From: Thermotogae bacterium
GTDB taxonomy: Bacteria; Thermotogota; Thermotogae; Mesoaciditogales; Mesoaciditogaceae
Length of the DNA stretch: 44,286 nucleotides
Direction: 5' to 3'
NCBI GenBank assembly: GCA_026988035.1
Contig: JALSLY010000062.1
Coordinates: forward strand, 1 to 44,286
Positions 2-9,455 of this stretch are shown here, piece after piece. Below the pieces are notes generated by a model that was not told the origin of the DNA, ran no database searches, and saw nothing but the letters and a program-made list of their open reading frames with translations. Position 1 is the first letter of the stretch. Every line of letters begins with the position of its first letter. The translations under genes were made by a program, and so were the position numbers.

Positions 2-1411
2 ACTTTTTACATCCGTATATTTTGATAAGGACTTGAGTTTTCTAAGTGCACGAATTGCCATCCAATTAGAAACCAACGAATCTTCATACATATTATATCC
101 TATGATGAATTCTTTTAACACATTTGCACTGATTTTCATGGCTGTAATATGTGACATTTCGTATGTAAGATCCATAATACTGTTTAGAACTCCTTTTCCA
201 ATCCACTCAAGTGATTCTACCGAAGACTTGTCTGGAGTATCTTCACTGGAATGATAAAAGCGGTCTGGCCACTGGGTCAATGAAGTGGTTGGAATTTTAA
301 CAGTTGAATCACAAAACATAAAATGGTCTGAGCCTCCTGAATATTTACCAGTTTTTATTCTGAATCTATCTGTTTCAAGATTTGCAAAAAGAAGATCACT
401 TATAAAAGAGGGCAATGACCATGGAGTAGACGACACCCGCAAAATCGAACCGGTTTTGCATTGATCCTCTCCAACCATATCGAGATTTATCCCGACCTCA
501 AAATCAGGTACATGATCCGTAAGATAGGCAGCAATGCCATACATTTCCGGAACCCAAAGAGCTACAATTTCACGATCTAAATCAGCCTTTTTGAGTACTC
601 TCACTATTTCGGCTAAAAGTGCTGAACCACTGGCATTATCATTGGCGCCAGGCTTAGGATGACAAAGATGAGCTACTAAGAGTAATGGCTTTTCATTTCC
701 TGATTTTCCGAAACGCGCTTCTAAAATTTCTAAATCATTAGTGCCACGATCCACATTTATGTACGCTTCAATTTCAAGTTTTCCGGACTTAGAAAGAGAT
801 TTCATCCATTTGTATTGCTCATAAGTCAAAGCGAAGCCAAAGGCTTTTCCATTCGAATAAGGGGGAAAAGAAGTATAATTAATTGCTTGAGGTAGAAACT
901 CTGGAGTTCTTCGTATTTCTTCAAGTTGTGCTCTCATAAAATATGAGAGCACACACCTTGCACCAAACTTCTCAACCGCCATGTCATAAACCCTTGAAAT
1001 ATTCCCACTTGACAAGACTGCGCATCCTCTGACAGACTGTGAATAATCTTCTTCCAACTCACCGCTTCCAACATCTATAACTTTTAACCTTTCAGTTCCA
1101 TTTGACGAACCAGACATGAAAATCGCAGCTATTGGAAAGAGAGATAAATCGGAAACAATATATTTCTTCGGACTAACCGTTCTCAAAAATCCACTCTTTA
1201 CGTTCCAACCTTCAGGTGTATTCCAGCTGTTGTACACTTTCCCGGCAGGATATTTTAGTAGCGTAGAATCTCCTATAACCTCTTGAATTTTTTCAACAGC
1301 TTGTAAATATCCATATCCTCCCTTTGCCCTGTGAAATCTCGAGAGCTCCCATTCTACTTCAAGTGCATTTTTCGGCGAAAATTCATTTAATATCTTCAAT
1401 CTTTTTATCAT
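2..1411 (-). CDS. M28-type zinc peptidase (DUF4910-like), C-terminus beyond window
   Basis: An open frame runs leftward from an ATG at 1411 to the window edge, giving 470 residues without a stop. Family-type metal-binding elements are visible: AHLCHP with H248, GANDNASG with D258, the acidic VPEM segment with E289, NLDMVGED with D311, and a C-terminal FYHSSEDT with a possible last histidine ligand. These are the signatures of M28/DUF4910 aminopeptidase-like proteins, which hydrolyse peptides with one or two zinc ions. There is no obvious signal peptide, so a cytoplasmic enzyme is likely. The start follows AGGAGG by about ten bases. It lies downstream of the S24-type regulator and overlaps the end of a 53-codon ORF, suggesting cotranscription. 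The natural substrate cannot be told from sequence. Confidence 0.85.
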   Translation of the reverse strand, partial: MIKRLKILNEFSPKNALEVEWELSRFHRAKGGYGYLQAVEKIQEVIGDSTLLKYPAGKVYNSWNTPEGWNVKSGFLRTVSPKKYIVSDLSLFPIAAIFMSGSSNGTERLKVIDVGSGELEEDYSQSVRGCAVLSSGNISRVYDMAVEKFGARCVLSYFMRAQLEEIRRTPEFLPQAINYTSFPPYSNGKAFGFALTYEQYKWMKSLSKSGKLEIEAYINVDRGTNDLEILEARFGKSGNEKPLLLVAHLCHPKPGANDNASGSALLAEIVRVLKKADLDREIVALWVPEMYGIAAYLTDHVPDFEVGINLDMVGEDQCKTGSILRVSSTPWSLPSFISDLLFANLETDRFRIKTGKYSGGSDHFMFCDSTVKIPTTSLTQWPDRFYHSSEDTPDKSSVESLEWIGKGVLNSIMDLTYEMSHITAMKISANVLKEFIIGYNMYEDSLVSNWMAIRALRKLKSLSKYTDVKS

Positions 1412-1544
1412 TGCTTTGATTCCTCCTATTCAAAACTGGATTCCATATTTCAAATCTCACATCCGCTATTTTTGTAGAGTTTTTTCTCCATAGAACAGTA
1501 TTTCCAAAGTTTATTTTCCATAAAACCGTTTTTATTATTCTCAT
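1383..1544 (-). CDS. Possible 53-residue ORF of unknown function
   Basis: A short frame starts at ATG 1544, seven bases after a strong GGAGGT, and ends at a TGA inside the peptidase gene, overlapping it by 29 bases. The product would be basic and tryptophan-rich, with an internal imperfect repeat (TVLWKINFG / TVLWRKNS). I recognise no family. It sits between the XRE/S24 regulator and the M28 peptidase. It could be a real small protein, or a translated leader that delivers ribosomes to the peptidase start. The good ribosome binding site is the main support. Confidence 0.4.
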   Translation of the reverse strand: MRIIKTVLWKINFGNTVLWRKNSTKIADVRFEIWNPVLNRRNQSNDKKIEDIK

Positions 1545-1583
1545 GGGAGTACCTCCAAATAATTTTATTCATCGCGTAACGAG

Positions 1584-2183
1584 TCATAAAATCTTTTGCC
1601 ATCTCCCCACGACTACTCCTAACAAAGATCCAGAGATTTTCACATCTTCAACTATGACGGGTCTATATTTCGAATTTTCTGGTTTTAATATAACCGAATC
1701 GCCTTGAAAATAAATTCGTCGTATTACGATCTCTTTTTCCTTCCAAAGCACAAGGTCTCCCTCTAAAGCAGGTCCCTTTCTTATAAGAGCAATGTCTCCT
1801 TTGGAGAGAACAGGCTCACAAGATTCGTCTGAAACTAAAACTCCGAAATCACATCCAAACCATATTGGAAGTTTTAAATATTCAATGGCTTTTCCGATTT
1901 GTAAAGAAGCAATGTTGTAAACTGACACAGTTTTCAATGAATATTCCTGCAGAGTGGTTTCCGAAAATTCAGAATCTTCAGAAGCACCTATTAAATAGTC
2001 AACACTCACCCTGAATACTTTAGACAACTTTGTAAGTGTTTCAAAATCTGGTGTATTTCGACCATTTTCGTAAGCAGAGATCGTTTTATCACTCAATCCC
2101 AGTAGAGCTCCTAATGCCCTCTGGCTCATTTGTTTTTCTGTTCTAAGCTGTTTCAGTCGTGAAGAAAAGGTGGAACTCATCAT
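1584..2183 (-). CDS. XRE-family regulator with LexA/CI-like S24 C-terminal domain
   Basis: The 199-residue protein has an N-terminal helix-turn-helix (about residues 8-65, with SQRALGALLGLSDKTISAYE) and a C-terminal S24 peptidase-like domain (about 105-195). The segment SDESCEPVLSKGD places a serine (S121) where LexA and CI repressors have their catalytic serine. In the strand VIRRIYFQGD the position of the catalytic lysine is an arginine (R155), so self-cleavage may be lost or altered. Family knowledge suggests a dimeric repressor of its own promoter and of neighbours. The second ATG (2180) lies five bases from GAGGTG and is at least as good a start as the first. The gene diverges from the 71-codon gene and nuclease; two inverted repeats overlap both promoters. 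Confidence 0.88.
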   Translation of the reverse strand: MMSSTFSSRLKQLRTEKQMSQRALGALLGLSDKTISAYENGRNTPDFETLTKLSKVFRVSVDYLIGASEDSEFSETTLQEYSLKTVSVYNIASLQIGKAIEYLKLPIWFGCDFGVLVSDESCEPVLSKGDIALIRKGPALEGDLVLWKEKEIVIRRIYFQGDSVILKPENSKYRPVIVEDVKISGSLLGVVVGRWQKIL

Positions 2184-2197
2184 ATCACCTCGTTTTA

Positions 2198-2226
2198 ATT
2201 CTACAATAAATAGACTAAAAAGTCAA
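2198..2226 (-). promoter_or_regulatory. Promoter of the XRE/S24 regulator
   Basis: On the minus strand TTGACT (2226-2221) and TAGAAT (2203-2198) are separated by exactly 17 bases. An inverted repeat (GACT aaaa AGTC, 2213-2224) overlaps the -35 box and spacer, which would allow autorepression. Confidence 0.7.
2213..2224. promoter_or_regulatory. Inverted repeat, candidate operator 1
   Basis: GACT and AGTC flank a four-A spacer as a perfect inverted repeat. It overlaps the minus-strand promoter of the S24-type regulator. It shares the half-site core (A)GAC with the second repeat at 2230-2250, suggesting one binding protein, most likely the regulator itself. Confidence 0.5.
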
Positions 2227-2229
2227 TGA

Positions 2230-2250
2230 ATGTCTTGAAAAAATAGACAT
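2230..2250. promoter_or_regulatory. Inverted repeat, candidate operator 2
   Basis: ATGTCT and AGACAT form a perfect six-base inverted repeat around a nine-base A-rich spacer. It covers the -35 box (TTGAAA, 2236-2241) of the rightward promoter, so a bound protein would block transcription of the small protein and nuclease genes. Confidence 0.55.
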
Positions 2251-2263
2251 AATGATGTATACT
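2236..2263 (+). promoter_or_regulatory. Promoter of the 71-codon gene and nuclease
   Basis: TTGAAA (2236-2241) and TATACT (2258-2263) are separated by 16 bases and lie upstream of the ORF at 2305. The -35 box is inside candidate operator 2. Confidence 0.65.
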
Positions 2264-2304
2264 ATCAATCATAGATAATAACATATCTACTGAGGAGAGA
2301 TAAA

Positions 2305-2520
2305 ATGAAAGATGAAATCACCCAATTGCTGAGAAACGAGTCCTTCAATGAATGCCAAATTACGAAGATCTTGGCAAAACAAGGATCTATTTCTCTTTTC
2401 ATACCTCGCAATGGCTGTCTGAAATCAGTAGAAGTCAGACTCGCACTTTCGAAGCTTCTACGTTCAAATAAAATCATTCTTAATCCAAATAAAAAATTTG
2501 AAATAAGAGAACAAAATTGA
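2305..2520 (+). CDS. Small winged-helix-like protein of unknown function
   Basis: This 71-residue protein starts at an ATG preceded by GAGGAGAG. I do not recognise a named family. The helix pattern (ITQLLRN, CQITKILAKQ, VEVRLALSKLLRS) followed by a short strand pair (KIILNPNKKFEI) resembles a compact winged-helix DNA-binding fold; this is an inference from pattern only. It is the first gene rightward from the operator region shared with the LexA-like regulator and lies 38 bases upstream of the TM0106-family nuclease. A role as an auxiliary regulator or partner of that nuclease is possible. Confidence 0.65.
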   Translation: MKDEITQLLRNESFNECQITKILAKQGSISLFIPRNGCLKSVEVRLALSKLLRSNKIILNPNKKFEIREQN

Positions 2521-2521
2521 A

Positions 2522-2552
2522 TTGAAAAATACGGACGTTTTTGTAGTAAAAT
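2522..2552 (+). promoter_or_regulatory. Candidate internal promoter for the nuclease gene (leaderless)
   Basis: TTGAAA (2522-2527) is followed after 16 bases by TAGTAA (2544-2549), or after 19 bases by TAAAAT (2547-2552). The nuclease ATG at 2559 lies only six to nine bases further on, and no Shine-Dalgarno sequence precedes it. Transcription could therefore begin at or next to the start codon. Evidence is weak. Confidence 0.35.
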
Positions 2553-2558
2553 GAAGTT

Positions 2559-3749
2559 ATGAAAATTGATCAAGAAATTCTAACAACCTTTACTTCATGC
2601 CCAAGAAAGGCATTTTTTATGGAGAATCAAATTCAAGAAGTTGTAAAAGAAGATGTCTTTCTTACCGAATATTCTGGGATGACTTTAATAGCCAAAGCGG
2701 ATGAGGTTATAAAAATTAACGGGAACCGCGTTGCTATTCTCGACAAATCATCCAAAAGTGTAAAAGAGCGCCACAGAATTGAATTGGCATTTCTCGCTTT
2801 TGTTTTTTCCCTTCGCGGTGAAAGAATTTCTGTTGGGCTCCGTCTTAATGGCGAGTTAAGACTTATGTATCCAAATACGGACAAAATTCCTTTGATACTT
2901 TCAGAAATAAAAAAGAGTTTCAGTTCAACATTTCCTCCTGAGCCTTCCTTCTCCTACACTTGCAAAAACTGTCCTTTTCATACAGATTGTATCAACTTTG
3001 CGATCAAGAACGGTGATATTACCATGATAAACGGCATTGGGGAAGGAAGAAAACGTGCGCTGAAAAAAGCGGGATTCTTAAAAGTTGATGATGTTGCTAA
3101 ATCAGATCCTCGAGCAATTTCCAAATACACTGGGGTAGACTTAAAAGAAGCGAAAAGAATCGTAAAGCAAGCCGAATCTATAAGTACTTCTAAATGGTTC
3201 TCCATCAATGAATTTACACTTCCGACAAGCGAATTTGAGTATTTTTTTGACGTTGAAAAGGGCGAAGATAAAATCTATCTCTTGGGGGTTCTTTTAAAAG
3301 AAAAATCCGACAATCAATATCGTTATTTCATTTTGGACGATTATTGGGAAAATGCCTGGAAAGGCTTTATCGATTTTGTGAATATTCATCCGAAAGCTCC
3401 CATATATCACTATGATGTTTTTGATAGGGATGTGATCAGAAAATTTGGCAACTTGTCAAAAATGAATGTAAAAGAATTGAGCGCACGTTTAGTAGATCTC
3501 TACAAATTGATAGTCCGTTCTTTTATTCTTCCCGTCCGATTTTATTCTCTTAAAGATGTGGCAAGAACCACAGGATTCAATTGGAGGACGGGAAGTTTCA
3601 GCGGTTATGAGGCAATGAAGGCACTGAGCATGTGGAGAGAAAGTAAAAACCCCGACATTCTCAGCAAAATCGTCACATACAACGAAGATGATTGCCGTGC
3701 TCTTATGACGGTTAAGACACGTTTAGAACGAGCACAAATGAATTTTTAG
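2559..3749 (+). CDS. TM0106-family RecB-like nuclease with RNase H-like domain
   Basis: The 396-residue protein has the order of the TM0106 (TIGR03491-type) family. An N-terminal Cas4/RecB-like part carries four cysteines placed for an iron-sulfur staple (C14, C135, C138, C144). A helix-hairpin-helix-like stretch follows (about 155-205, NGIGEGRKRALKKAG). A C-terminal RNase H-like exonuclease part has D231-x-E233, D286 and the YNEDDC motif with D378. In the N-terminal part, D48 and ILDKSSK (D62) are present, but the lysine expected two residues after D62 is a serine, so that active site may be weak or dead. Known members are assumed to act on DNA; no substrate is established here. It follows the small winged-helix-like gene and has no clear ribosome binding site. 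Confidence 0.85.
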   Translation: MKIDQEILTTFTSCPRKAFFMENQIQEVVKEDVFLTEYSGMTLIAKADEVIKINGNRVAILDKSSKSVKERHRIELAFLAFVFSLRGERISVGLRLNGELRLMYPNTDKIPLILSEIKKSFSSTFPPEPSFSYTCKNCPFHTDCINFAIKNGDITMINGIGEGRKRALKKAGFLKVDDVAKSDPRAISKYTGVDLKEAKRIVKQAESISTSKWFSINEFTLPTSEFEYFFDVEKGEDKIYLLGVLLKEKSDNQYRYFILDDYWENAWKGFIDFVNIHPKAPIYHYDVFDRDVIRKFGNLSKMNVKELSARLVDLYKLIVRSFILPVRFYSLKDVARTTGFNWRTGSFSGYEAMKALSMWRESKNPDILSKIVTYNEDDCRALMTVKTRLERAQMNF

Positions 3750-5409: not shown

Positions 5410-6981
5410 ATGGCAATAAATGTCAGTAACTTGTGGAAACAAACAAAAAAAATTTATACTGATCGTTTTAAACCGCTAAGTTGGGGACAAAAGCTTTTGT
5501 GGATCGCCGTGGTTTTAGGAACGGCAATAGGTTTGATTATTCTGATAGATGTAAACTCTTCTCCCAAATACGTAACTCTTGTTTCAAACTTAAGCGAGGA
5601 AAGTGCCGGCTATATAACGCAAAAACTTGATGGATTAGGTATTCCATATAAAGCAGGACCAAACGGGACTATCTATATTCCACAATCATCGAACGTTTAC
5701 GAAGTAAGGATGAAGTTGGCAACTCTTGGTGCGCTTGGCCCTGCTGCTGGAACACAAGGATATAGTCTACTACAAAGTAATTCCATCGCTTCAATGGGAA
5801 TGACCAGTTTTGATAGACAAGTTCAATTTCAAATTGCTTTGGCAGGAGAATTGGAAAGAAGCATAGATATGCTCAATGCTATCCAATATTCGAAAGTTTT
5901 TCTTTCTCTTCCAAAATATACGTATTATGTGCCAGGTGAAGAGGAAAAACCAACAGCTTCTGTTTTGGTCATTTTGAAGCCTGGAATGTCTCTCACTGCT
6001 GATCAAGTGTTTGGCATTATGAATTTAGTTGCTGGAGCCGTTGGGAAAATGCCAGTTTCCAATGTCAAAGTTGTTGATCAGTTCTCAAATGTTCTAAGCG
6101 ATCAAGTAAATCTCTCATCTTCTGCAATCTCAGGTGCTTCAAAACTTAAGCTTCAGCAGTCTGTTGAAAAATATTACGTGGATAAGGTTAAAAAGATGCT
6201 CTATAATGTATTTGGATACGGGAATGTTGCCATTGCTGCAAACGCTGTACTTGATTGGCAAAAGATAACGCAGGAAAACAAAACTTACATTCCAACTAAT
6301 CAAAAAGGAAATACAGGTGTTCTTAGTAGTCAAGAAAGTGAAAAAAGCTTATCATCCAATGGCATACCTTCTGGAGTACCTGGAACGTACTCGAACATTC
6401 CGCCAACTTATTCGTCCACAACCAAGTCTTCAGAAGTATCTCAATATTCACGGACTGTGACTAATTACGATGTTTCTCAGACTTACAACCAAGTTGTGGA
6501 AGATAAATCAGGAGAGATCAAAAAACTCACAATGACCGTGTTTTTGAACTCATCTAATGCTACAGTCAATACTAACGAAGTCAAAATGGCAGTTGCAAAC
6601 GCCATAGGAGTTCCTGCATCTGGTGTACAAGTTTTACCGATGGCTTTTGACAGAAGTGCGGAAAAGGCTGCAGAAAAAGAACAGATAGTGCTTCAAAGTC
6701 AAGAACGTTTCAAACTGTTAGTAGCATACAGTTTAATTTTTTCGCTTTTATTAACGGCTTTACTTTACTTTATGTGGTCACGTCATAAAAAGAAGAAAAA
6801 GATAAGAGAAATTGAGATGCGTAGAAAGAAAATAGAAGAAGAAGTAGCTCAAGTGTCTCGTGAGGTTCCAGAAGTTAAGAACAAGGAGCTTCTCGATCTT
6901 CAAAATGCTGTGGTGGAATGGGTAGACGAGGATCCCAGCGAAGTGGCTCAACTTATAAAGATATGGATGTCTAAGGAGTGA
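5410..6981 (+). CDS. fliF: Flagellar MS-ring protein FliF
   Basis: FliF forms the membrane-embedded MS ring of the flagellar basal body and of its export gate. The 523-residue protein has a transmembrane helix near residues 24-46, the YscJ/FliF ring-building domains (YVTLVSNLS, IPYKAGPNGTIYIP, QFQIALAGELERSI), a low-complexity serine-rich loop around 295-345, a second membrane helix near 435-457 and a charged C-terminal tail for binding FliG. The usual family length is about 500-560. It lies nine bases after the amidohydrolase-like gene without a strong Shine-Dalgarno of its own, so translational coupling is likely, and it is followed directly by fliG. Confidence 0.97.
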   Translation: MAINVSNLWKQTKKIYTDRFKPLSWGQKLLWIAVVLGTAIGLIILIDVNSSPKYVTLVSNLSEESAGYITQKLDGLGIPYKAGPNGTIYIPQSSNVYEVRMKLATLGALGPAAGTQGYSLLQSNSIASMGMTSFDRQVQFQIALAGELERSIDMLNAIQYSKVFLSLPKYTYYVPGEEEKPTASVLVILKPGMSLTADQVFGIMNLVAGAVGKMPVSNVKVVDQFSNVLSDQVNLSSSAISGASKLKLQQSVEKYYVDKVKKMLYNVFGYGNVAIAANAVLDWQKITQENKTYIPTNQKGNTGVLSSQESEKSLSSNGIPSGVPGTYSNIPPTYSSTTKSSEVSQYSRTVTNYDVSQTYNQVVEDKSGEIKKLTMTVFLNSSNATVNTNEVKMAVANAIGVPASGVQVLPMAFDRSAEKAAEKEQIVLQSQERFKLLVAYSLIFSLLLTALLYFMWSRHKKKKKIREIEMRRKKIEEEVAQVSREVPEVKNKELLDLQNAVVEWVDEDPSEVAQLIKIWMSKE

Positions 6982-6983
6982 CG

Positions 6984-8003
6984 ATGGCTGAAAAAGACAA
7001 AAAACAAAAGTTAACTAACAAAAGAAAAGCTGCGATATTTCTCCTAACAATTGGAGCTGAAAAAGCTTCCAAGATATTGAAAAATCTGAATGAAGACCAA
7101 ATTGAAGAACTAACCTTGGAAATAGCAAACATTAGAGAAATCGATGACAAGGAACGCGAAGAAGCTTTAAAAGAGTTTTCCCAGATGATGAGAGCCAGAG
7201 AATTTATAAACCGCGGAGGAGTTGAGTATGCTCGGGATCTACTCGAAAAAGCACTTGGACCTGAAAAAGCACTTGAAATTATAGAAAGATTGACAGCCAA
7301 TCTTCAAGTAAAGCCTTTCGACTTTATGAAAAAAGCAGATATGGTACAGTTGGTCAACTTCATTCAAAATGAGCATCCACAAACTATTGCATTGGTTCTT
7401 GCATATCTTGATCCCAAACAGTCATCACAGGTTCTAATATCCCTTCCTGAAGATCTTCAAGCGGATGTGGTTAAGAGATTAGCGTTGCTTGAACGTGCTT
7501 CCCCTGAAATCGTAAAACAAGTAGAAAAAGTCCTCGAAAAAAAGATGTCCTCATTTGTCAGCCAAGACTTCAGCAATGTGGGTGGAATAGATGTTGCCGT
7601 GGAGCTCATGAATTCCATCGAGAGGTCAGCTGAAAAGCGCATACTTGATACTCTCCAGAAAACTGATCCAGAGCTTTCTGAAGAAATTAAAAAACGAATG
7701 TTTGTCTTTGAAGATATTACAACTCTTGATGATCGTTCGATACAAATGGTACTTCGAGAGGTTGACACTCACGATCTTGCTCTTGCAATGAAAGGCTCCT
7801 CAGATGAAGTAAAAAACAAGATCTTCAAAAATATGTCTAAGAGAGCATCTGCCTTGTTAGAAGACGAGCTGAAATATATGGGCCCTGTTAGAGTAAAAGA
7901 TGTAGAAAATGCCCAGCTGAAGATTGTGGCCATTATTAGAAAGCTTGAAGATGCAGGAGAGATCGTGATAAGCCGTGGTGGAGGCGAGGATCTGATTGTT
8001 TGA
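6984..8003 (+). CDS. fliG: Flagellar motor switch protein FliG
   Basis: FliG is the rotor component that meets the stator and, with FliM and FliN, sets rotation direction. The protein (339 residues from ATG 6984) has the N-terminal FliF-binding helices, the middle domain with ENEHPQ-type motif (FIQNEHPQTIALVL) and the C-terminal motor domain with the charged ridge (FVFEDITTLDDRSIQMVLREV). ATG 6984 is preferred because AAGGAG at 6973-6978 is at the right distance; an in-frame GTG at 6978 overlaps that site. The fliF stop is two bases upstream and the next gene overlaps the stop, so the genes are translationally linked. Confidence 0.97.
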   Translation: MAEKDKKQKLTNKRKAAIFLLTIGAEKASKILKNLNEDQIEELTLEIANIREIDDKEREEALKEFSQMMRAREFINRGGVEYARDLLEKALGPEKALEIIERLTANLQVKPFDFMKKADMVQLVNFIQNEHPQTIALVLAYLDPKQSSQVLISLPEDLQADVVKRLALLERASPEIVKQVEKVLEKKMSSFVSQDFSNVGGIDVAVELMNSIERSAEKRILDTLQKTDPELSEEIKKRMFVFEDITTLDDRSIQMVLREVDTHDLALAMKGSSDEVKNKIFKNMSKRASALLEDELKYMGPVRVKDVENAQLKIVAIIRKLEDAGEIVISRGGGEDLIV

Positions 8004-8655
8004 TATCATAAAAGGTGCTAATATCACTAATGAAAAGGTTATGATAGGACCTAAAACTGAAAAAAAATCAACTGGGCAAGAAGAAGATCCTCAAAAATAC
8101 GCCCAAGCGAAAAGTGAAGAAATAATCAGTGCGGCTCAAAAAAAAGCCAAGCAATTGATCGAGGAAGCCAACTCTAAACTCGAAGAGATAAAAAAGCAAG
8201 CTCAAAATGCGGGGTATAGCAGAGGTGTTGAAGAAGCCAAAGCAGAATGGGAATCCAAAATTTCTCGACTGAAAGAGATTGTAAAATTAATTGAAAAACG
8301 CATCGATCTTTCAATTGACGAGCTCAAACCTTCCTTGGTTGATTTATCAATCGCCGTGGTTAAGGAAGTAGCTTTCTCTGAAGTAGACCGCGGAAACATA
8401 TCTGACAAGATAAATCGCGCCATAGATATGGTTAAATCTTCAAAGAAAATCGTTTTAAAAATCTCGAACAACGTTCCACAAGAAATTGTGAATGAGCTTT
8501 CAAAAATCGAAAAAGTTCAGGTGATCACTGATACATTACTTGATGTCATGGATGTTCAAGTAGAAGCGGACTTTGGCTCTTTGGATCTTCGAATAAACTC
8601 CCAAATTGCTCTTTTTGAAAACCTTATAAGAAAGGCATTCGGAACTGCTACGTGA
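7996..8655 (+). CDS. fliH: Flagellar export protein FliH-like
   Basis: FliH-type proteins form the peripheral stalk of the flagellar type III export ATPase complex and hold FliI. This 219-residue protein has a charged coiled-coil region (about 30-110, rich in K, E, A and Q) and a C-terminal globular part (FENLIRKAFG end) typical of FliH/YscL. The start is TTG at 7996, overlapping the last codons of fliG, with GAGG six bases upstream. No fliI follows; instead a dam gene overlaps the stop by four bases. Family assignment rests on architecture and position after fliG. Confidence 0.82.
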   Translation: MFDIIKGANITNEKVMIGPKTEKKSTGQEEDPQKYAQAKSEEIISAAQKKAKQLIEEANSKLEEIKKQAQNAGYSRGVEEAKAEWESKISRLKEIVKLIEKRIDLSIDELKPSLVDLSIAVVKEVAFSEVDRGNISDKINRAIDMVKSSKKIVLKISNNVPQEIVNELSKIEKVQVITDTLLDVMDVQVEADFGSLDLRINSQIALFENLIRKAFGTAT

Positions 8656-9455
8656 AGCCGATTCTAAAGTGGGCTGGCGGGAAAAGATGGCTAATTCCCA
8701 TGATTTCTAAAATGTTCGAACATTTTCGTGATTTCAGACTTGTAGAGCCATTTGCCGGAGGTATTGCCATAGCGCTGGGTTTGCTTCCCAAAAAAGTTTT
8801 GCTTAACGATGCCAATTGTCACCTAATTAATTTTTACAAATGGGTGAAAAATGGCCTTGATCCCACTGTGATCAAAATGGAAAATAACAGAGAAACTTAT
8901 TATGAAAATCGACGTAAATTCAACTTGCTTATAACAAAAGGAAAATGGAGTTCTCCAGAGGCAGCTGCACTTTTTTATTATCTCAATCGTACGGGATATA
9001 ATGGTTTATGTCGCTTTAACAAAAAAGGCTCATTCAACGTCCCATTTGGAAAATACAAACACATTAACTATGTACTTTCATTCGAGGAGTATGAAACGGT
9101 TTTCAAAAATTGGGATTTTTCATGCGGAGACTTTGAAAATATTGATATCATGCCAAATGATTTTATATATGCAGATCCGCCTTACGATGTGGAATTTACC
9201 CAGTATTCGAAAAATGGGTTTACTTGGTCTGACCAGATCAGGTTAGTTAAATGGCTTGACAAGTTTCAAAACCCCATCGTTTTATCGAACCAAGCAACCA
9301 AAAGGATAGTCGATCTTTATCTCTCTTATGGATACAGTCTCAAGTACGTTAATATCCAAAGAGCTATATCTTGTAAGGCAAGAAATCGTACAAGAGAAGT
9401 AATTGCGGTAAGAAATACAACAATAGAGGAACACCTGATAGAGAAACTGTTATGA
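8652..9455 (+). CDS. dam: DNA adenine methyltransferase (Dam family)
   Basis: This alpha-class N6-adenine methyltransferase transfers a methyl group from S-adenosylmethionine to adenine in DNA. The protein (267 residues) shows the D12/Dam order: WAGGKRWL at 7-14, the SAM motif EPFAGGIA at 32-39, LNDAN at 51-55, LNRTGYNGLCRFN near 111-123, and catalytic DPPY at 175-178. The recognition site is likely GATC by family, but this cannot be proved here. No restriction endonuclease gene is adjacent, so it looks like an orphan methylase. It starts with GTG overlapping the fliH stop by four bases, so expression appears tied to the flagellar cluster. Confidence 0.93.
   Translation: MKPILKWAGGKRWLIPMISKMFEHFRDFRLVEPFAGGIAIALGLLPKKVLLNDANCHLINFYKWVKNGLDPTVIKMENNRETYYENRRKFNLLITKGKWSSPEAAALFYYLNRTGYNGLCRFNKKGSFNVPFGKYKHINYVLSFEEYETVFKNWDFSCGDFENIDIMPNDFIYADPPYDVEFTQYSKNGFTWSDQIRLVKWLDKFQNPIVLSNQATKRIVDLYLSYGYSLKYVNIQRAISCKARNRTREVIAVRNTTIEEHLIEKLL

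Follow-up and report, generated by a model that had tools for sequence, protein, structure and literature searches.

The locus described here raises the question of what an S24-domain regulator controls when it stands back to back with a gene for a small protein, which is followed by a nuclease gene. A preliminary description had suggested a nuclease module under a LexA-like regulator, switched by stress or DNA damage. The window, i.e., the whole stretch of DNA that was analysed (44,286 nucleotides), stems from a member of the Mesoaciditogaceae (Thermotogota), which are hot-spring bacteria.

Genomes and gene layout

Ten Mesoaciditogaceae genomes from four genera (G000–G009) were compared, among them that of the cultured Athalassotoga saccharophila NAS-01, which is complete, and MAGs of Mesoaciditoga; genus g1 includes G000 (the genome of the window), G001 and G002. 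G002 and G005 are MAGs which are both 87% complete, and this incompleteness weakens absences scored there. The features of the locus are collected in the table. The start codon of the regulator gene is the ATG at either 2180 or 2183. On the rightward strand the order is 71-aa ORF, TM0106-family gene and then tRNA-Leu. A fliF-fliG-fliH-like cluster (5410–8655) is also present near the switch, and an ORF for a Dam-like adenine-N6 methyltransferase (8652–9455) lies directly 3' of the fliH-like gene, with overlapping ends.

Table. Features of the regulator locus and their positions in the window
Feature	Position	Strand	Basis or remarks
Regulator with XRE helix-turn-helix and degenerate S24 domain (LexA fold); CI-like, probably a repressor	1584..2183	-	HTH_3, Peptidase_S24, PHROG 4
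71-aa protein, predicted winged helix, divergent to regulator	2305..2520	+	AlphaFold2, family distribution
53-codon ORF, second gene of leftward operon	1383..1544	-	Conserved; substitutions by codon position
M28/DUF4910 peptidase, third gene of leftward operon, truncated by contig end	1..1411	-	Profile match
TM0106-family nuclease (putative)	2559..3749	+	TIGR03491
Leftward promoter, TTGACT, 17 bp, TAGAAT	2198..2226	-	TGAC of -35 and TAGAAT shared by all eight genomes
Rightward promoter, TTGAAA, 17 bp, TATACT	2235..2263	+	TATACT conserved in 8/8
Operator-like site O1, TCTACAATAAATAGA	2200..2214		Over leftward -10; half-sites (eight bases) intact in 8/8
Operator-like site O2, TCTTGAAAAAATAGA	2233..2247		Over rightward -35; one mismatch, 8/8
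Operator-like site O3, ACTATCAATCATAGA	2261..2275		Rightward -10 to start region; one mismatch, 8/8
Operator-like site O4, TCTACTGAGGAGAGA	2286..2300		Over ribosome-binding site of 71-aa gene; one mismatch, 7/8

The divergent arrangement of regulator and 71-aa ORF, as first described, was confirmed: the two genes are adjacent and divergent in all eight genomes which carry either of them, and neither was found in the incomplete MAGs G002 and G005. Nothing is conserved 3' of the 71-aa gene: this place is taken by the TM0106 nuclease in g1 and by an L-fucose-isomerase-like gene in g2, and G004 and G007 have other, differing genes there.

Regulator

The regulator contains HTH_3 (61 bits) and Peptidase_S24 (PF00717; 39.3 bits, cut-off 23.3) domains; its score with the LexA equivalog model was 30.8 bits, i.e., below the cut-off of 110.95. 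The best PHROG was PHROG 4, transcriptional repressor (5e-29), and relatives in phages are annotated as repressors, including the CI-like repressor of a Marinitoga phage. Clear orthologues (59–89%) are present in eight of the ten genomes. They were aligned with 18 other Thermotogota XRE-S24 proteins and with E. coli LexA, which served as a guide only. The Ala-Gly cleavage site is absent from all eight orthologues, and the position of the catalytic Lys is occupied by R, F or Y; the Ser of the S24 domain is retained in seven and replaced by Thr in G006. Most of the other Thermotogota XRE-S24 proteins have Lys together with Ala-Gly or a variant close to it, and E. coli LexA also has the Ala-Gly site. 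A structure model of the S24 domain was of low confidence (pLDDT 57) and was left unused.

Since Ala-Gly is gone and Lys replaced throughout the orthologues, classical RecA-triggered self-cleavage of the regulator is very unlikely, and with it the proposed switching by DNA damage; some residual S24 chemistry is formally still conceivable, given the Ser in seven of them. Of the designation "LexA-like", the S24 domain stood, as detected by profile, and the cleavage site, the catalytic Lys and the LexA equivalog score did not. Judged by its residues, the regulator does not share the mechanism of LexA.

Predicted winged-helix partner

That the small ORF encodes a protein with a winged helix had been anticipated correctly, as far as prediction goes. 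Substitutions between G000 and G001 (12/5/26 by codon position) have the third-position bias of a coding sequence, and AlphaFold2 with eight orthologues yielded a single winged helix with a mean pLDDT of 93.7. The best Foldseek matches of this model were winged helices of PadR, the MarR-type ZitR/TcaR and Rpa2 (TM-scores of about 0.6–0.7), none with an E value below 0.001. Sequence searches of Pfam, NCBIfam, PHROG and PDB yielded no convincing family, and a search for homologues in phages no convincing one; a Cro/XRE fold had no family match either, AlphaFold2 giving the winged helix instead. A toxin-antitoxin pair had been considered due to weak scores with XRE antitoxin models and was dropped in view of the predicted winged helix of the partner.

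The protein was found in 8 of 103 Thermotogota genomes, all of them Mesoaciditogaceae; one further, marginal match among the 103 is interrupted by a stop codon. The third helix of a winged helix is usually the recognition helix, and most of the invariant residues (S41, E43, R45, L48, L51) are located within or just before it. Between genera the identity of the 71-aa protein is 25–39%, while the operator-like sites hardly change, which fits with the regulator, rather than the 71-aa protein, as the main binder of these sites.

Promoters and operator-like sites

Two sigma-70 promoters face each other between the genes, each with 10 of 12 consensus positions. They are overlain by four sites of 15 bp with the pattern TCTA-N7-TAGA, which are conserved across three genera; O4 is the weakest of them. 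The TAGA halves of O1 and O2 are inside the promoter spacers and that of O3 is downstream of the -10, i.e., in positions which are not demanded by a promoter. In the intergenic alignment of eight genomes, four windows were conserved in at least seven genomes, as compared to one at most in 300 column shuffles, for which the 4-mer could be chosen freely. In the G000 sequence alone the four sites were not significant after motif choice, since 22 of 200 shuffles also reached four; the significance was therefore taken from conservation.

Scanning of the genomes detected an O1-O2-like pair once per genome at the switch locus in the eight genomes with the gene pair; G000 has one extra match, which is intragenic, and G002 and G005 have no such pair of sites. 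Matches to TTCTA-N7-TAGAY in the genome were at chance level (10, as against 35 for the control), and those inspected besides the native site appear inside coding sequence; single-site targets of the regulator elsewhere in the genome are conceivable.

Two inverted repeats had been pointed out originally. ATGTCT-n9-AGACAT proved to be one of the four sites, its core TCT(A/T)-N7-TAGA being conserved. The palindrome GACTaaaaAGTC is present, not conserved, and was rejected as an operator; its AGTC is part of the leftward -35 (TTGAC). Pairing and sites are conserved, and one regulator probably acts on both sides through this shared operator region, as had been supposed.

Leftward operon

The leftward side was described accurately: the 53-codon ORF is kept directly downstream of the regulator at all eight loci, has the family motif LW..-G..-vW.K...FE-W and, with 8/9/18 substitutions by codon position between G000 and G001, a third-position bias, which indicates coding. 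The M28 peptidase belongs to the operon in four of the eight genomes (G000, G001, G004, G007), an acetyltransferase in all of them, and an MTS-type methyltransferase with an NPPF motif in five. In G000 the remainder of the peptidase gene is on contig C24, with the acetyltransferase and methyltransferase genes after it. Orthologues of the acetyltransferase (L107, L108, L110) come after fliS-like genes in other Thermotogota families. G005 possesses a peptidase-acetyltransferase-methyltransferase operon without regulator, 53-codon ORF or sites; the switch is thus an optional head on this operon.

Proposed switch

Pairing, sites, promoters, lost cleavage residues and the predicted winged helix, all of them read from sequences, make it probable that the locus is a chromosomal, domesticated, autoregulated switch of the CI/Cro type, belonging to the Mesoaciditogaceae and having a repressor that is not cleavable. 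For binding, repression, the antagonist and the signal we infer the following course. The XRE/pseudo-S24 regulator, expressed from the leftward promoter, would bind to the four sites. At O1, on its own -10, it should regulate its own synthesis; at O2, O3 and O4 (-35, start region and ribosome-binding site) it would repress the winged-helix gene. The winged-helix protein would be the opposing partner, either a Cro-like one with the same DNA as its target or an antagonist of the repressor. The leftward transcript would also carry the 53-codon ORF, the GNAT acetyltransferase, in some genera the M28 peptidase and often the small methyltransferase, so that the output of this operon would depend on how the switch is set. 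Classical RecA-stimulated self-cleavage would not come into question as the signal, for which a ligand, a partner protein or the level of expression is therefore probable.

Alternative explanations

The regulator could also be a metabolic one that senses a ligand, namely a small molecule or peptide which is tied to the leftward operon and would bind to the dead S24 domain; the winged-helix protein would then be a minor accessory. The constant acetyltransferase, the M28 peptidase in four and the methyltransferase in five operons, as well as the retention of an S24 domain which has lost its cleavage residues, would agree with this explanation; however, G005 has the operon but neither regulator nor sites, and every genome with the regulator also retains the winged-helix gene. 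On balance it is considered unlikely, if worth keeping in mind.

For the damage-switched module, damage-induced cleavage of the S24 regulator would have to release one operon that encodes both the winged-helix protein and the nuclease of the TM0106 type. The S24 domain and the placement of the two genes on the same strand with a gap of 38 nt (G000 and G001) spoke for it. The nuclease itself had been classified correctly: it scored 215 bits with TIGR03491 (RecB-like putative nuclease; cut-off 97.45), which places it in the TM0106 family, and profiles detected Cas4-like and RNase_H_2 domains. The gene is present in all ten genomes, but it adjoins the regulator/71-aa pair only in G000 and G001, i.e., within genus g1, and is located elsewhere in the other eight. 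In G002, where no such pair was found, it lies elsewhere, with the 5' box TTTTGTAGTAAAATG intact just before the ATG and unrelated sequence further upstream; in the window a promoter-like box is found directly upstream of the gene, at about 2539–2553. The conservation of TTTTGTAGTAAAATG in G002 suggests that the nuclease has its own promoter and does not depend on the switch; some read-through from the 71-aa gene may occur in G000 and G001. Thus, the comparison of gene neighbourhoods in ten genomes upheld the regulator/71-aa pairing and led to rejection of the nuclease as part of the module; by its distribution, the nuclease is outside the conserved unit and a chance neighbour of the switch. 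Together with a regulator lacking cleavage site and catalytic Lys, this renders the module highly improbable. In aligned Thermotogota TM0106-type proteins (window 2559–3749, L002–L029) a RecB/Cas4-like D/E-x-K was not conserved, and Cys residues and the acidic residues of RNase H (DEDD-like) were kept; the C-terminal domain is thus the probable seat of catalysis.

A functionless remnant of a prophage immunity region, to which the CI-like regulator might point, has the least to recommend it, since operators, promoters and both reading frames are conserved over three genera with coding constraint, and no prophage genes were recognised around the pair.

Comparison with known systems and LexA of the family

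The proposed CI/Cro-type switch shares with phage CI/Cro systems (lambda type, Marinitoga) the XRE-S24 repressor with CI-like relatives, divergent promoters overlain, by sequence, with several palindromic operator-like sites of one consensus, and the geometry of autoregulation; it differs by the lack of a recognisable prophage, an S24 domain which is dead by sequence, and a partner which is not of the XRE/Cro fold. Among the domesticated pairs described so far, IrvR/IrvA of Streptococcus mutans comes closest. It is RecA-independent, derives from phage CI/Cro and belongs to the core genome; its LexA-like repressor IrvR has an Ala-Gly site and a Ser-Lys dyad, cleaves itself, and has as its main target the adjacent irvA with its Cro-like product (PMC7101444). 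In comparison, the regulator of the Mesoaciditogaceae has neither the Lys nor the cleavage site, and its partner is a predicted winged helix, not Cro-like. Where a regulator with the LexA fold but no cleavage residues is concerned, the nearest precedent is LexA of Synechocystis PCC 6803, which is not an SOS regulator (PMC4759255, PMC5101192); that protein is a wHTH LexA, whereas here an XRE-S24 regulator has a dedicated divergent partner. Thus, the general kind is already known, and what appears new is the combination, in which the S24 domain is dead and the partner a winged helix. In its mechanism the pair would therefore stand outside the LexA family.

The single strong LexA-wHTH protein found per Mesoaciditogaceae genome (L111 from the G000:C73:2774 region, L112 from Athalassotoga, L133, L140 and L123) is also without Ala-Gly and Lys, and its Ser fails to align. 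In G000, G007 and Athalassotoga its gene adjoins cheW. This degenerate type is not shared by LexA of several other families of Thermotogota; in two genomes of family f7 LexA looks degenerate too. From its sequences, the family Mesoaciditogaceae may lack cleavage-based SOS control.

With these data the story of a damage-switched nuclease is corrected to a clean two-gene switch. The fold of S24 kept, its protease chemistry lost and a partner of different fold raise the question of how such a switch flips. It could perhaps be, and this is put forward tentatively as one possibility, that a captured phage-type repressor without self-cleavage chemistry was rewired against an unrelated, family-specific winged-helix protein and now governs the operon of peptidase, acetyltransferase and methyltransferase, the signal being something else than DNA damage. 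This would have come about in a lineage in which LexA, too, has lost the cleavage residues. With a dead-S24 regulator and a degenerate LexA, the Mesoaciditogaceae would look like a lineage that has no SOS control of the classical, cleavage-based type.
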